The notes under the pieces were generated by a model, which did not search any database, was not told where the DNA came from, and saw nothing but the letters and a program-made list of their open reading frames with translations. From Pirellulales bacterium (GTDB lineage: Bacteria; Planctomycetota; Planctomycetia; Pirellulales; JADZDJ01), in contig DASRSD010000184.1 in the NCBI GenBank assembly GCA_035656635.1, positions 1-64,000 of the forward strand: 64,000 nt of DNA, written 5' to 3'. Numbering within the stretch: position 1 is the first letter of the stretch; each line of letters opens with the position of its first letter. Shown here piece after piece: positions 36,014 to 42,516 of the stretch. The position numbers and the translations under genes are program-made.

Positions 36014-36040
36014 GGCGCGACCGGCAGTCGCGGTGATATG
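36014..36040. repeat. Degenerate TATAAAG-family repeat arm
   Basis: GGCGCGACCGGCAGTCGCGG, then TGATATG resembles the right arm of the elements at 18239 and 19712, with several changes. A weakly similar inverse arm may lie near 35967-35985 (ATGAACCGCTGGTC). It fills the divergent gap between bioD and aguB and provides the bases immediately before, and part of, the aguB start codon. Confidence 0.45.
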
Positions 36041-36958
36041 AGCAGCGGTCAATCATTACCGACCACTCACCCCGCACCCCTCACGGCTTCTCCGTCCGCC
36101 CGCATCAACGTGGCGTTGGTGCAGATGAGCTGCGTGTCGCAGAAAGCAAAAAACGTCGACAAGGCGCTTGCCCGAATTGCCGAAGCCGCTGCTGCCGGCG
36201 CCAATGTGGTTTGCTTGCAGGAACTGTTCCACGGGCTATATCCCTGCCAAAGCGAAGATCATGCTCGGTTTGAAGAAGCCGAACCCATTCCGGGCCCCAC
36301 GAGCGAAGCTTTGGCCGCCGCCGCCAAAAAACACGGCGTGGCGATTATTGGCTCACTCTTCGAGCGCCGGGCAGCGGGTGTGTATCACAACACGGCAATG
36401 GTGTTCGATGCCGACGGACGCACGGCAGGCATGTACCGCAAAATGCACATTCCCGACGATCCAAACTATTACGAAAAATTCTATTTCGCCCCCGGCGATT
36501 TGGGCTTCGTGGCTTTCGACACCCGATTTGGGCGCGTAGGTCCATTGGTTTGCTGGGATCAATGGTATCCGGAGGCAGCCAGGCTTACGGCTTTGCGCGG
36601 AGCGCAGATTCTGTTTTATCCCACGGCAATCGGCTGGTTGCATGCCGAAAAGTCGGAGTACGGCGTTAGCCAGCACGCTGCTTGGGAAACGATGATGCGC
36701 AGCCATGCGATTGCCAACGGCGTGTTCGTCGTGGCCGTGAACCGCGTGGGAACCGAAGGCGGCATTGAATTTTGGGGTGCGTCGTTTGTAGCCGATCCGA
36801 ACGGAAACATCTTGGCCCGGGCCACCCACGAAAAGGAAGAAACACTGATTGTGGAGTGCGATTTGGACCGCATCGACGTGGTGCGCACCCATTGGCCGTT
36901 TCTGCGTGACCGGCGGATCGATGCTTATGGCGACATTACCAAGCGGTATGTGGATTGA
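36038..36958 (+). CDS. aguB: N-carbamoylputrescine amidase
   Basis: Nitrilase-superfamily hydrolase (C-N hydrolase) that releases putrescine, ammonia and carbon dioxide from N-carbamoylputrescine. The Glu-Lys-Cys triad is Glu62 in CLQELFHGLYPC, Lys135 in YRKMHIPDDP and Cys172 in LVCWDQWYPEA. The context HIPDDPNYYEKFYFAPGD is typical for AguB. It is 17 bases upstream of aguA, so both steps from agmatine to putrescine are encoded together. The first 20 residues are low-complexity and the real start could be a little further in. Confidence 0.92.
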   Translation: MSSGQSLPTTHPAPLTASPSARINVALVQMSCVSQKAKNVDKALARIAEAAAAGANVVCLQELFHGLYPCQSEDHARFEEAEPIPGPTSEALAAAAKKHGVAIIGSLFERRAAGVYHNTAMVFDADGRTAGMYRKMHIPDDPNYYEKFYFAPGDLGFVAFDTRFGRVGPLVCWDQWYPEAARLTALRGAQILFYPTAIGWLHAEKSEYGVSQHAAWETMMRSHAIANGVFVVAVNRVGTEGGIEFWGASFVADPNGNILARATHEKEETLIVECDLDRIDVVRTHWPFLRDRRIDAYGDITKRYVD

Positions 36959-36974
36959 ACATCGTGAACACACA

Positions 36975-38036
36975 ATGAGCAGTGATCCTTGCCCCGCGCC
37001 CCTCACTCCGAGTTTAACTCCCTCCTCGCTTGGCTATCGCATGCCGGCCGAGTGGGAACCGCATGCGGCCACGTGGTTGGCATGGCCACATAAGCGCGAA
37101 AGTTGGCCCGGCAAGTTCGAGCCCATTCCACCGCTTTATGCGCAGTTGGTGCGCACACTGGCACAGTTTGAACCGGTGCATATTTTGGCCGGCGGCCCGG
37201 CGGTGATGGCGGAAGCCAACGCATTGGTCGGCGATGTCGCAAACGTCACACTGCATGATATTCCCACCAACGACGCTTGGACGCGCGATCATGGTCCCAC
37301 TTTTTTAGTTGGCCCGCCCGGTGCGACGGCGGCCTTGGTCGATTGGGGTTACAATGCTTGGGGTGGAAAATATCCGCCGTTCGATTTGGACGACGCCGTG
37401 CCCGAAAAAATCGCCGCGTGGTCTGGTCGACGTCTATTCAAGCCGGGAATCATTTTGGAAGGGGGGGCCATCGATTCCAACGGTTGCGGGACAATTCTTA
37501 CGACCGAACAATGCCTGCTCAACCCGAATCGCAATCCGCAACTTTGTTGCACCGACATGCAGCGCTACTTAGCCGATTATTTGGGCGCGAAAAAAGTGCT
37601 GTGGCTGGGTGAAGGAATCGAGGGAGACGATACCGACGGCCACATTGACGAGCTGGCGCGCTTTGTTGGCCCGCGCACGGTGGCGGCGGCCCTGGAGAGT
37701 GATACCAACGACGTGAATTATGCCCCGCTGCGAGAGAATTTCGAACGGCTGCAGCGCATGACCGATCAAGAGAACCAGCCGCTGGATGTGATCGCGCTCC
37801 CCATGCCTCGCTCGATTCATTACGATGGCCAGCGCCTGCCGGCCAGTTATTGCAATTTCTATATGGCCAACGGTGTAGCCATTGTGCCGCAGTTCGACGA
37901 CCCGGCGGATGCTAGAGTTGTACAGATACTCGGCCAACTGCTGCCCGGCCGGCAGATCATCGGCCTGCCCGCTCGCGATTTGGTGTGGGGCCTGGGAGCT
38001 TTTCACTGCATCACTCAGCAAGAACCGGCGATTTAA
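36975..38036 (+). CDS. aguA: Agmatine deiminase
   Basis: Converts agmatine to N-carbamoylputrescine, the substrate of the adjacent AguB. Family blocks are RMPAEWEPHAATWLAWPH at 22-39, TNDAWTRDHGPTF at 98-110, LEGGAIDSNGCGTILTTEQC, EGDDTDGHIDELARF and the nucleophile Cys345 in GAFHCITQQEP at the C-terminus. The start at 36975 gives 353 residues. The two genes form a compact agmatine-to-putrescine pathway; no arginine decarboxylase is visible in the window. Confidence 0.94.
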   Translation: MSSDPCPAPLTPSLTPSSLGYRMPAEWEPHAATWLAWPHKRESWPGKFEPIPPLYAQLVRTLAQFEPVHILAGGPAVMAEANALVGDVANVTLHDIPTNDAWTRDHGPTFLVGPPGATAALVDWGYNAWGGKYPPFDLDDAVPEKIAAWSGRRLFKPGIILEGGAIDSNGCGTILTTEQCLLNPNRNPQLCCTDMQRYLADYLGAKKVLWLGEGIEGDDTDGHIDELARFVGPRTVAAALESDTNDVNYAPLRENFERLQRMTDQENQPLDVIALPMPRSIHYDGQRLPASYCNFYMANGVAIVPQFDDPADARVVQILGQLLPGRQIIGLPARDLVWGLGAFHCITQQEPAI

Positions 38037-38069: not shown

Positions 38070-38957
38070 ATGGCCGACAACGAAGCGGACTTCGACGATT
38101 CGTCTTCTGCCTCGACCGGCAGTGTCGATCAGGCAGAGTTCGTAGGGCGGTCTCGGTTCGTGCTCGCGGCGTTGCTGGCTTTAGCCGCGCCGTTTTTGGT
38201 CGATGCCGCACCGATTGCCGGGCTGAAAACGCTGCACGGCGATGAGCTAATTTTGACGCCGCTCCTATTTAGCATCATCTTCGCCAAGTATGGCCTCATG
38301 GCCATGTGGCTGGCTTGGGGCGGATCGCGCGCCATTTGGCGAATGATTATCCTGGCGATCAGTTGGTTTTTCACCTGCATGCTTACGCCCGGGCCATACA
38401 CCGACGTGCCGCAGTTGTTTCTTGCATTCTATTTGCAATTGATCGTTATCGCCGCGGCCATTGCAGTGCCACGGCTATTTGGCGTGCGTTGGGTGGCGGA
38501 CGTAAAGTGGTCTGCCGGCGTTTCAGTCGCCCAGAATAAGCCCTACCAGTTTTCGATTTATGATCTGCTGATTTGGACCACCACAGTGGCCATTTTGGCG
38601 GAGCTGATTCGCTGGGTCGGCATGCCGCAGGGTGTTGGCATGGAAGGAATTTTTTTTATGTCCCTAGGCGGCGCAATGCTAGCTTTCATTGTGCTCACCG
38701 CCATGTGGGCACAATTGGCGGAAATGGCGGTTGGTTCCAGCATGGGCGGCCGGACCATTCTAACTTTCATCCTCGCATTGATTATGGCGGTTGTCGTCGT
38801 GTCCCTATCGCGAGCGCCGGGAAAAGCTGCAGCATTCCTATTCATGCTGATTCTGGCGACCACCGGTTGGCTCTTGGCTGCTTGCTACGTGCTGCGCTGT
38901 TACGGCCACCGCCTCGTACGGCGTAAATCATCCAGCCCGCAAGCGACAATAACATAA
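38070..38957 (+). CDS. Multi-pass membrane protein of unknown function
   Basis: A 295-residue membrane protein with an acidic N-terminal tail (about 25 residues) and seven or so hydrophobic helices (FVLAALLALAAPFLVD, LTPLLFSIIFAKYGLMAMWL, LFLAFYLQLIVIAAAIAV, GGAMLAFIVLTAMWAQLAEM, TILTFILALIMAVVVVSL, AAAFLFMLILATTGWLLAAC). No family motif is recognised. Its 3' end overlaps the end of the convergent PEP-CTERM gene by 116 bases. The frame is open throughout and composition is like its neighbours, so I accept both genes. Confidence 0.65.
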   Translation: MADNEADFDDSSSASTGSVDQAEFVGRSRFVLAALLALAAPFLVDAAPIAGLKTLHGDELILTPLLFSIIFAKYGLMAMWLAWGGSRAIWRMIILAISWFFTCMLTPGPYTDVPQLFLAFYLQLIVIAAAIAVPRLFGVRWVADVKWSAGVSVAQNKPYQFSIYDLLIWTTTVAILAELIRWVGMPQGVGMEGIFFMSLGGAMLAFIVLTAMWAQLAEMAVGSSMGGRTILTFILALIMAVVVVSLSRAPGKAAAFLFMLILATTGWLLAACYVLRCYGHRLVRRKSSSPQATIT

Positions 38958-39738
38958 GTGCACCTGCCGCCGGCTCAGGCACCGCGTTAATTACGCCGAC
39001 CGCGTCGAAATCGAAACCGCTGGAGGTGCTGACCGTGGAATAGGGATCGTTAATCACATTGCCGTTAAAATCAAGGCTATACGTACCAGGACCAAGCCCT
39101 TTATTGATATTCCCAATTACGTCGGTCACGCGCACGTATTGCACGTCGTTCACATCCAGCAGTGGGTTGCCGGCCAGTTCTTGCAGATCGAAGGGCGTGC
39201 CGGCCAAAGTGTCCCCCGCCAAATCGTGTAAATATGTGGGGTCCAAGAGATTCGCGTTGCTGATCTGCGTGGTGGTTTGCGTCAATGACACCGACGGAAA
39301 CCGAAAGAAATTCACGCCGTCGCTGCTCACGTCGACAAACCCTAATTCCAAAAAAGCTTGCGGCGGCGTGCCGGAGGCAAACCCGTTTTCAAATACCGCA
39401 AAATCGGAGCCTGGCCCGTTGAGGATCGGTTGCGCAAATTGAACGGCGATTTGGCCACCGTCTCCCAAGCTAACTACCTTGCCATCAGCCGGCCCGGTGG
39501 CGTTGCTTGCCGTGCCGAAAGACGCCGCAGATCCTGTCGGATTTGTAATATTCTGCGGGCCGCGTGTGATCGACGTCACTTGGCTTGCCCATTCCACAAA
39601 CTGCGGCGAGTTCGCCGAAATGCCCGGCGTGCTATACGGGCCGGCTCCAATCTGTGCGAAGCTCATTCGGGCAATCATTGCAAAAAGCACAACAGCAAAA
39701 ACAAATCGGCCAAAGTGCAAAACCTGTGCGCGTACCAT
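38842..39738 (-). CDS. PEP-CTERM surface protein, third gene of the B12-riboswitch group
   Basis: A 298-residue secreted protein: signal peptide (FGRFVFAVVLFAMIARMSFA), mature beta-rich region, and a C-terminal PEP-CTERM sorting signal (VPEPAAGALMLLSLAGWMIY then basic residues), which exosortase would process to anchor it at the surface. The core GSDFAVFENGFASGTPPQA followed by FLELGFVDVSSDGVNFFRFP suggests a beta-sandwich found in cell-surface proteins. A tail of about 24 residues follows the sorting signal, which is longer than usual. It is 82 bases after the dockerin/PEP-CTERM gene. The start at 39738 (MVRAQVLHFG) is set by the signal peptide. Confidence 0.78.
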   Translation of the reverse strand: MVRAQVLHFGRFVFAVVLFAMIARMSFAQIGAGPYSTPGISANSPQFVEWASQVTSITRGPQNITNPTGSAASFGTASNATGPADGKVVSLGDGGQIAVQFAQPILNGPGSDFAVFENGFASGTPPQAFLELGFVDVSSDGVNFFRFPSVSLTQTTTQISNANLLDPTYLHDLAGDTLAGTPFDLQELAGNPLLDVNDVQYVRVTDVIGNINKGLGPGTYSLDFNGNVINDPYSTVSTSSGFDFDAVGVINAVPEPAAGALMLLSLAGWMIYAVRGGGRNSAARSKQPRANRWSPESA

Positions 39739-39820
39739 GAGCGCGTCCTCCAAACGGGGATTTTTGAAAACATCGCACCGAACACATCGCCGGTGCAAAA
39801 AAGAAAAGCCGACTCGAACT

Positions 39821-41164
39821 CTACGCTGACGATGCCCTCATCCTGGCCTCGAACCAGCCGCGGCGGTAATACACCAACACGCCACAGCCCACGGCCCCAA
39901 TGGCCAACACCCAGGCCGCCGGCTCGGGCACACTGTTCACCGACCCGCCCCCGCTGAGCAGCAAGTTCAATAATCCTTGAAGATCGGCGTTGTTGACGGT
40001 TCCATCGTCGTTCAAATCGCCAATCGAAAGCATGTCCCTGGTGTTGAGCGTGGCATTTTGAGAGTTGCCGCCGTTCTGGTAGGCATTCAGATTGACCAGC
40101 GCCGCCAGCATGGCCACCACGTCGCTGGCGTCGACGTGCCCATCGAGATTGAAATCGCCTGGCAAATGCACATTAAAAGCGGAAGCGCTGTAAATGCCTT
40201 GTTCGTCGCCAAAGCCAGAGGCTAAAAACCGATCGTTCGCCTTGTCGTAAACCACGGAGGTATAGCCGTCGTTGCTATACACTTCGCTGTTCCCTTGCAA
40301 ATCGAACACCGTTACACCTTGGATGCCTCCCACAAATAAATACCCGCGCGCGTCGAAAAACATTCCGGCCCCGCCGTTGTTGTCTTTGGCATTGAACAGT
40401 TGGCCGCTGCTCCACTCCAGCGCCGTGTTGGTGTTGTAAGCGTTTTGCAAATCGCTGAGGGAGAACCGCCGGATTTGTCCTGCATCGGGACCAAAGCCTA
40501 CGCCCACGTATAGGCGACCGGACGAATCCATCGTCATCGACGTGCTGGCGCCGGGAATACCGTTGATGACTGAAATCGCCGGAACGCTTGCTCCTGCCGT
40601 GGAGTCGAATACCGAAACGTTGCTGCCGCTGCCAAATGCGTCAGTTCCTGAATCGATAAAGTATTTGCTGTTCGACCCGCTAAAAGGCGCGGCCAGAAAC
40701 GACGCATGAAACGGAATATTTCCCACAGGGCTGGTCGCATTTTCGCCAGCGGCAGACATGGCGAATATGTTCCCGGCATTCCCGTCCGGATTCGTGCCGC
40801 CGGCGCCGTTGCCCAACAAGATTTGGCTGAAGTCGGTGGAGAAGGTGATGGGACCGGCATCCGAGCCACTGGTGTTAACCGATCCAATCGACGTGTATGA
40901 ATCGCTGTTGAATCCGTCTTGCTTGAGCACGCTGGCCCCGTCCCACACGTACATCAATCCGTCCAACGGTCCAAAAGCCACCGATACACCATAGGCATCG
41001 CTGCTGTTTAGCGGCAAGTTGACCGGCGTGGTCGGATCACCCAGCGAAACGGCTAATGCCCGGGTCGTTAGCAGCATGCAGCACAACCACGCGCAACCTC
41101 TCACTCCCATCAAAATCAGCCAAGCCGGCCGGCCATTCCGAGCTAAACAAGAATTTATGAACAT
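39821..41164 (-). CDS. Beta-propeller-like surface protein with dockerin and PEP-CTERM
   Basis: A 447-residue secreted protein. After a signal peptide (AWLCCMLLTTRALA) come six or seven repeats of 40-50 residues with strand-turn-strand patterns (SVAFGPLDGLMYVWDGASV, STDFSQILLGNGAG, MDSSGRLYVGVGFGPD, FFDARGYLFVGGIQGVTVFD, YDKANDRFLASGFGDEQGIY), which read as a YncE/NHL-like beta-propeller. Next is a dockerin-like pair of calcium loops (GDFNLDGHVDASDVVAML and GDLNDDGTVNNADLQGLLNL), then PEP-CTERM signal VPEPAAWVLAIGAVGCGVLV and YYRRG. It is the middle gene of the riboswitch-led group. Binding of cobalamin is suggested by context only. Confidence 0.8.
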   Translation of the reverse strand: MFINSCLARNGRPAWLILMGVRGCAWLCCMLLTTRALAVSLGDPTTPVNLPLNSSDAYGVSVAFGPLDGLMYVWDGASVLKQDGFNSDSYTSIGSVNTSGSDAGPITFSTDFSQILLGNGAGGTNPDGNAGNIFAMSAAGENATSPVGNIPFHASFLAAPFSGSNSKYFIDSGTDAFGSGSNVSVFDSTAGASVPAISVINGIPGASTSMTMDSSGRLYVGVGFGPDAGQIRRFSLSDLQNAYNTNTALEWSSGQLFNAKDNNGGAGMFFDARGYLFVGGIQGVTVFDLQGNSEVYSNDGYTSVVYDKANDRFLASGFGDEQGIYSASAFNVHLPGDFNLDGHVDASDVVAMLAALVNLNAYQNGGNSQNATLNTRDMLSIGDLNDDGTVNNADLQGLLNLLLSGGGSVNSVPEPAAWVLAIGAVGCGVLVYYRRGWFEARMRASSA

Positions 41165-41227: not shown

Positions 41228-42232
41228 TTAAGGTAAATTCATCGATGCGCCGTCGACGGTTTCTCCACTGGCGCGCGTGCACAGCGCCGCCAGCACTTCC
41301 AACTGCGTGAGTTCACCTAAAAAATGCACTGAGCCGTCGCAGAATAACGCGTTGATGCCGCCGGAGTGGTCGCTCCACATTTCGTTATTTTGCCACAGAT
41401 ATTCTGGCACCGAATGATCGTTGATCAGGCCGCTTTCGTCGAAAATGTTTTCGCCGTTGGCCCATTGCCCATCGAAAGCGGCGCCGCGGCCGGTATCTTC
41501 TGAAACGATAATGGTGTGCGAAGCGCCGTCGGTAATATCTGCCAACGAAATCGGCTGCTCGTAAATCAGCACGCCGTTCATGTAGGGTTTGCCCAAGCCA
41601 TTGAAGCCAAAGTTGCCGCCGTAATCGGTGAAGGCCAAATTATCGCCGGGATCCCAGTGGCCGTTGCCGTTCATATCGCCGGTGGTCATGCCGGTTCGAT
41701 CGGCGGCATACCGCGTGCAACTGGGGCAATTGAAAATTGGCAAAATGGCGCCGGCGGCCAGCGCATTTTCCTGGGCGTTGTAAGCTTTGGTTAAATCGAA
41801 CTTGGCGAATAACGATTGTTCGCCAATGAACGGCAGCAGAAACACATTCCAACTGAGCTGACGCCCCTTCGGATTCGCGCTGGTCTTGCGATCTAACAGC
41901 CCGGGCGGAAAGGCATGCTTGGCCTCATGGTGCGTCAATAATCCCAGCCCGATTTGATGTAAATTGTTCTGGCATGCCGTGCGCCGCGCAGCTTCCCGGG
42001 CTGCTTGCACCGCCGGCAGCAATAGTGCGATCAGCACGCCAATAATCGCCAGCACCACCAGCAGCTCGACCAGCGTGAAGGCGGAAGCAATGCGGAATGC
42101 GGAATGGGGGGTGAGGAATGGATGGTGAACTGAGCTGCCAGTTGTCCGTGGTCCGTTGTTGCTCGTTGCCGGCAACTGGCCACTAACCACTGACGACTGA
42201 CCACGGCGCATCTTCAAGCCATGAGCGCTCAT
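41228..42232 (-). CDS. DUF1559 prepilin-like protein downstream of cobalamin riboswitch
   Basis: A 334-residue protein of the DUF1559 family, abundant in Planctomycetes. The type IV pilin-like helix is FTLVELLVVLAIIGVLIALL and then LPAVQAAREAARR, starting near residue 51, and the C-terminal H-x9-DG region appears as SDHSGGINALFCDGSVHFL. Unlike the usual 5-20 residue leader, about 50 residues precede FTLVELL and appear to be encoded by intergenic-type repeat DNA (42090-42210). Start codons at 42232 and 42211 are both possible; neither has a clear ribosome site. Calling it a pilus part is not justified. Confidence 0.82.
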   Translation of the reverse strand: MSAHGLKMRRGQSSVVSGQLPATSNNGPRTTGSSVHHPFLTPHSAFRIASAFTLVELLVVLAIIGVLIALLLPAVQAAREAARRTACQNNLHQIGLGLLTHHEAKHAFPPGLLDRKTSANPKGRQLSWNVFLLPFIGEQSLFAKFDLTKAYNAQENALAAGAILPIFNCPSCTRYAADRTGMTTGDMNGNGHWDPGDNLAFTDYGGNFGFNGLGKPYMNGVLIYEQPISLADITDGASHTIIVSEDTGRGAAFDGQWANGENIFDESGLINDHSVPEYLWQNNEMWSDHSGGINALFCDGSVHFLGELTQLEVLAALCTRASGETVDGASMNLP

Positions 42233-42304: not shown

Positions 42305-42516
42305 GTTGGTAGGTCTTCTGACTTCCGAGCCGTACGTCGCCACAGCCTTCTCGCCGCAACGGTCCAAATTGCTTTTGCAAAGAGGATCGCGCGACAATGG
42401 CAATTAGAAAACGACGTGCGTTACCGCTCGGTTACAGCGGCGGGGCCGTCCCGGGTTTACACCGGAGTTCCCTGTTTGTTGGCCGAAAAATCAAACGCTT
42501 TCAGCCAACCACCAAC
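42305..42516 (-). ncRNA. Cobalamin (B12) riboswitch aptamer
   Basis: Read on the minus strand. The conserved core runs AACAGGGAACTCCGGTG, then TAAACCCGGGACGGCCCCGC, then CGCTGTAACCG (42430-42480), and the B12-box GAAGTCAGAAGACCTACC lies at 42308-42325. The closing P1 stem pairs GTTGGT (42511-42516) with ACCAAC (42305-42310). Together these are the diagnostic elements of a cobalamin riboswitch, which senses adenosyl- or hydroxo/aquocobalamin and usually lowers expression when B12 is plentiful. It precedes the DUF1559 gene by 73 bases, with the two PEP-CTERM genes following. No transport or synthesis gene for B12 is in the window. Confidence 0.93.

Follow-up and report, generated by a model that had tools for sequence, protein, structure and literature searches.

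What does a secreted protein do when a beta-propeller, a dockerin and a surface-sorting signal are combined in it under a vitamin B12 riboswitch? The question is raised by the gene at positions 39821-41164 (minus strand) of the DNA analysed here, a stretch of 64,000 nucleotides from a Pirellulales bacterium that we call the window. A sequence-only reading of this gene had suggested that the dockerin might dock the protein into a larger surface complex while an exosortase anchors it, and had regarded the combination as unusual. Our main finding is a different one: the propeller belongs to a phylum-wide family of B12-regulated six-bladed propellers paired with BtuH-like proteins. The protein itself is probably a surface-anchored B12 catcher, as judged by analogy with known capture systems.

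Anatomy of the protein and layout of its operon

The open reading frame 39821-41164 is intact and encodes 447 residues, in which a propeller, a pair of dockerin loops and a PEP-CTERM tail do occur together, as the sequence-only reading had described, preceded by a signal peptide. The propeller domain (residues 39-333; 40166-41050, minus strand) is the conserved core of the protein. A Pfam scan matched no family outside the dockerin and PEP-CTERM regions. We modelled residues 39-410 with AlphaFold2 using 12 relatives as input, and obtained a mean pLDDT of 82 and a pTM of 0.78, with the propeller part mostly at pLDDT 83-95 (about 90 for residues 39-333). Approximately 24 strands form six four-stranded blades, a count that we made by comparing the DSSP string with the repeats in the sequence, and the N-terminal strand helps to close blade 6. 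Foldseek matched the propeller model to 1,025 PDB chains at E<=1e-3, and the top matches were six-bladed propellers of the SMP-30/gluconolactonase type (2dso, E 6.5e-9). The domain assignment draws on this model, on Foldseek and on our family alignments A5 and A6.

C-terminal to the propeller lies a dockerin type I-like module (39944-40165, minus strand), which matches PF00404 with an E-value of 4.3e-6 and 27.3 bits against a Pfam cut-off of 22.9. Both calcium loops proposed from the sequence were located, the first being DFNLDGHVDASD (residues 337-348) and the second DLNDDGTVNNAD (residues 383-394); the region is modelled poorly by AlphaFold2, with a pLDDT of about 45-65. The protein ends in a PEP-CTERM sorting tail (39821-39931, minus strand). 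By inspection, the VPEP motif, the hydrophobic stretch and the basic end (YYRRGWFEAR) of the proposed signal are all there, but the Pfam match (PF07589, E 0.038) falls below the curated cut-off; the PEP-CTERM model is matched by five of eight propeller-family members. The exosortase that such a tail had led the earlier reading to expect is encoded in the same genome (PF09721, E 1.2e-41), where the exosortase/archaeosortase signature also scores above its cut-off. Tail and enzyme together are consistent with the proposed anchoring at the surface.

The operon is led by a cobalamin riboswitch aptamer (RF00174, 42531-42291, minus strand; cmscan 86.5 bits, E 6e-20), which is the sole cobalamin riboswitch in the 4.9 Mb genome. 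It is followed on the minus strand by a DUF1559 pseudopilin-like gene (41228-42232; PF07596 E 1.5e-47, with N_methyl and H-X9-DG-CTERM), by the propeller gene (41164-39821) and by a partner PEP-CTERM gene (39798-38842), with short spacing and all directed away from the riboswitch. The DUF1559 gene likely starts at an ATG at 42232 or 42211, the longest open frame beginning at 42403 inside the riboswitch; the partner likely starts at the ATG at 39738. Since promoter and terminator scans of the operon performed no better than shuffles, we infer a single transcript from gene order, spacing and conservation. In a scan of public genomes the sole relative was locus L086 from a groundwater planctomycete MAG, whose propeller is 56% identical and which shows the order riboswitch, DUF1559, propeller, one additional gene and a partner-family gene.

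A B12-regulated propeller family and its BtuH-like partner

We searched with the propeller profile in 397 genomes of the order and then in 392 genomes of the phylum. A cobalamin riboswitch was found upstream on the same strand in 36 of the 41 family loci tested, a figure that does not count independent events, as the loci are related by descent. All 12 testable strong members of the order lie downstream of a same-strand riboswitch, the thirteenth starting at a contig end. The same holds for 10 of the best 12 matches outside the order and, among 17 additional weak matches with E-values up to about 1e-4, for 14. In two of the five exceptions, L194 and L211, a contig end truncates the upstream region. 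The weak members are joined to the family by profile-profile comparison (prob 98, E 2e-13), and the linkage spans many families and holds at the edge of detection. Genomes usually carry one to three cobalamin riboswitches, and given 36 of 41 loci a chance association is very unlikely. The propeller family is B12-regulated across the phylum, and the riboswitch is therefore the key to this locus; more generally, a riboswitch can indicate a ligand where sequence search fails. Outside the order the propeller gene directly follows the riboswitch. As a separate observation, other B12 riboswitches of the order (L071, L082, L005, L011, L007, L016 and L028) precede genes that appear by eye to encode MetE and ribonucleotide reductase, the usual B12-independent isozymes.

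The partner gene (38842-39798, minus strand), on which the sequence-only reading is silent, turned out to be a main clue and points to the same vitamin. A Pfam scan of its family matched nothing except PEP-CTERM. Yet a profile of 34 family sequences retrieved one convincing chain from the PDB, 8BLW chain B (residues 386-522, E 1.3e-8), and this chain was also the sole PDB match below 1e-3 for the AlphaFold model of the partner (pLDDT 86, E 2.3e-5). The entry 8BLW shows BtuB1 bound to BtuG1 from Bacteroides thetaiotaomicron, and BtuG1 consists of a propeller fused to a C-terminal B12-binding BtuH domain (PMC10404256). A sister profile built from loci of other orders (L195, L198 and L201) gives an E-value of 5e-29 for 8BLW and 7.5e-18 for BtuH2 (7BIZ), and links to the window's partner family at prob 98.6. 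By homology the partner is a BtuH family member, predicted to bind B12. A HasA hemophore match (E 3e-4) of a smaller partner profile was absent with the larger profile, and we treated it as chance. The gene also weakly matches the Leptospira LIC_13355 lipoprotein family (NF033170, E 4e-5), which may thus be BtuH-like too.

The loci L195-L199 show riboswitch, propeller, BtuH-like gene and DUF1559 in this order, and in L201 propeller and BtuH-like sequence share one open frame, as in BtuG1. Because BtuG1 fuses a propeller with BtuH, its two halves correspond to the two neighbouring genes of the window.

Additionally, we examined chosen families in the organism's own genome, which is an estimated 95.6% complete. 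It encodes MetH, the B12-dependent methionine synthase, together with other corrinoid proteins, and no CbiC/CobH was found in it. The gene content suggests that the organism makes use of B12 and is probably unable to synthesise the corrin ring. A single protein with a TonB plug turned up, located at a contig edge and lacking a BtuB-type family match; neither btuB nor btuFCD genes were found in the operon.

An interchangeable slot beside the BtuH-like gene

We surveyed 81 riboswitch-downstream regions of the order for the gene that stands beside the BtuH-like one. This slot holds the propeller in 9 loci, a DUF4465 protein in 27 and a protein of the WGYRWDG family in 17, and no locus is shared between them. 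By chance 14.2 overlaps would be expected, and 0 of 100,000 shuffles, which treat the loci as unrelated, came out free of overlap. Outside the 81 regions, L171 carries propeller and WGYRWDG in one frame, so mutual exclusion is a strong tendency and not a rule. A DUF4465 domain and a BtuH-like domain are likewise joined in one frame in L136.

The occupants of the slot bear directly on the ligand of the propeller. All 25 scanned planctomycete DUF4465 proteins match PF14717, and their profile retrieves the B12-complex structure of D5EK51 (9HMU) with an E-value of 1e-48. The exact TPAY/TPSY core of the binding loop, searched as a strict pattern, is kept in 15 of 27. DUF4465 is a B12-binding domain according to eight tested members, which include those of the planctomycete Mucisphaera calidilacus and of Coraliomargarita (PMC13398666). 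The propeller thus stands where sister operons have a known B12 binder, and nothing argues more strongly that it would bind B12 too. The third family, named for its VWGYRWDG motif, fills the slot under B12 riboswitches at L081:1775-2641, L094:1552-2226, L112:1438-2391 and 14 further loci. Outside dockerin and PEP-CTERM, these proteins gave no Pfam or PDB match. We regard WGYRWDG as a candidate new B12-binding family.

A six-bladed propeller under the genome's only B12 riboswitch, adjoined by a relative of BtuH, is thus probably a B12 catcher. We consider it likely that the operon encodes a B12-capture system anchored by exosortase, which would function like BtuG/BtuH with an unrelated six-bladed propeller. 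When cobalamin is low, the riboswitch would permit expression of the operon, that is, control would presumably be of the OFF type. Signal peptides would export the propeller and the BtuH-like protein, and exosortase would anchor both at the cell envelope through their PEP-CTERM tails. There the two may hold and concentrate cobamides for uptake, in the manner of BtuG and BtuH on the Bacteroides surface, and presumably hand them over to an importer. With somewhat less assurance, we lean towards the broader reading that this propeller is the first representative of a new family of cobamide binders spread over Planctomycetota, in which an SMP-30-like six-bladed fold was recruited independently of BtuG for binding B12 at the surface. 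DUF4465 and WGYRWDG would be alternatives to it, giving at least three interchangeable binders that are paired with a BtuH-like partner and anchored by exosortase.

The competing explanation that survives best is an envelope protein that is regulated by B12 but binds no corrinoid, for instance a structural or adhesive partner of DUF1559 or a scaffold for the BtuH-like protein. In the order the propeller is almost always near DUF1559, and the BtuH-like neighbour could be the sole binder. Still, its replacement by DUF4465 binders in sister operons, the position of the propeller at the head of the operon outside the order, and the coupling of a B12-binding propeller with BtuH in Bacteroides BtuG1 (PMC10404256) make such a non-binder unlikely.

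An enzyme of the SMP-30/gluconolactonase kind, needed when B12 is scarce, is more doubtful still. The best fold matches are to six-bladed SMP-30-type propellers, and weak DFPase matches are found at the sequence level (E about 0.02), but WD40 and other propellers score nearly as high, so the fold is not diagnostic. The Glu/Asn/Asp metal site of SMP-30 requires a glutamate, and no conserved one is seen in alignment A6 of the family. The propeller also sits in a slot exchanged with B12-binding proteins. The target is 12-15% identical to SMP-30, gluconolactonase and DFPase propellers and differs from them in regulation and location. We therefore rate an enzymatic role as very improbable and retain B12 capture as the preferred reading.

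Known capture systems and the dockerin tail

The closest functional parallel to the proposed capture system is BtuG (BtuG1/BtuG2) of Bacteroides thetaiotaomicron, an exported surface propeller under B12-riboswitch control that stands beside BtuH or is fused to it (PMC6143338, PMC10404256). BtuG, however, is a seven-bladed lipoprotein that forms a lid on BtuB, whereas the target has six blades and a PEP-CTERM tail, with no btuB in its operon. Four propeller-family profiles searched against the PDB retrieved no BtuG chain at E<=10. We thus rejected orthology with BtuG on the grounds of blade number, the lack of any detectable sequence relation, and the lack of a lipid anchor and of a neighbouring btuB.

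The partner, in contrast, is homologous to BtuH (BtuH2, 7BIZ; the C-terminal domain of BtuG1, 8BLW) and stands under the same kind of riboswitch, and differs in its exosortase-type anchor in place of a lipoprotein anchor, its planctomycete host and the absence of PKD domains. DUF4465/BtuJ proteins (PF14717) take the same slot in sister operons, share the PEP-CTERM tail and in some cases carry the dockerin as well; their fold is an augmented jellyroll and not a propeller, and they are absent from the window's operon.

What is understood of B12 capture at the cell surface, apart from BtuB, comes mostly from gut Bacteroidetes. Our literature search turned up no earlier account of a B12/PEP-CTERM system in planctomycetes, and BtuG was reported to occur in Bacteroidetes alone (PMC6143338). 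The present loci point to a parallel capture system throughout the Planctomycetota that combines a BtuH homolog, DUF4465 binders, another propeller and an exosortase anchor. They also offer a candidate function for a PEP-CTERM family that has no Pfam domain beyond dockerin and sorting tail. If this is true, surface capture of B12 would be widespread in environmental bacteria, beyond the gut.

What, then, is the dockerin for? A search of the organism's own genome with the whole protein gave 67 matches, nearly all of them, apart from the protein itself, to the dockerin region. The tail thus recurs at about 66 other places, and about 29 of the matches, counted from the match table, extend into PEP-CTERM. 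Since the same dockerin/PEP-CTERM tail is carried by dozens of unrelated proteins, it is a stock module of the lineage. The combination of the two is ordinary for this organism. In the nearest propeller orthologs, L108, L073 and L086 (58, 53 and 56% identical over the domain), the propeller passes directly to PEP-CTERM without any dockerin. Among sister operons, a dockerin is present in 2 of 9 propellers, 6 of 27 DUF4465 proteins, 9 of 17 WGYRWDG proteins and 0 of 40 BtuH-like ORFs. From its distribution, the dockerin appears to be an optional, lineage-specific tail or spacer, with the functional core elsewhere. The Pfam cohesin model (PF00963) found no match in the genome, although a divergent cohesin could escape Pfam. 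The suggestion that the protein mainly serves to join a cohesin-bearing surface complex through its dockerin has canonical loops and the significant PF00404 match in its favour, but we rejected it as scarcely credible in view of a genome with no Pfam cohesin, of orthologs that do not conserve the dockerin and of the tail's spread over dozens of proteins. Like cellulosomal dockerin proteins, the target has two dockerin calcium loops; it differs from them in having no glycoside hydrolase, no cohesin in its genome and no dockerin conserved in its family.

Several further features of these loci are worth recording. The DUF1559 pseudopilin-like gene is a near-constant member of the operon in most of the 81 surveyed loci. 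Genes resembling diphthine-ammonia ligase and class I methyltransferases were often seen downstream by eye (L086:6094-7083, L068, L073, L076 and L081). Within the window, positions 36038-38036 of the plus strand hold tandem genes for a nitrilase-type amidohydrolase and an agmatine-deiminase-like protein, which by eye probably serve polyamine synthesis.
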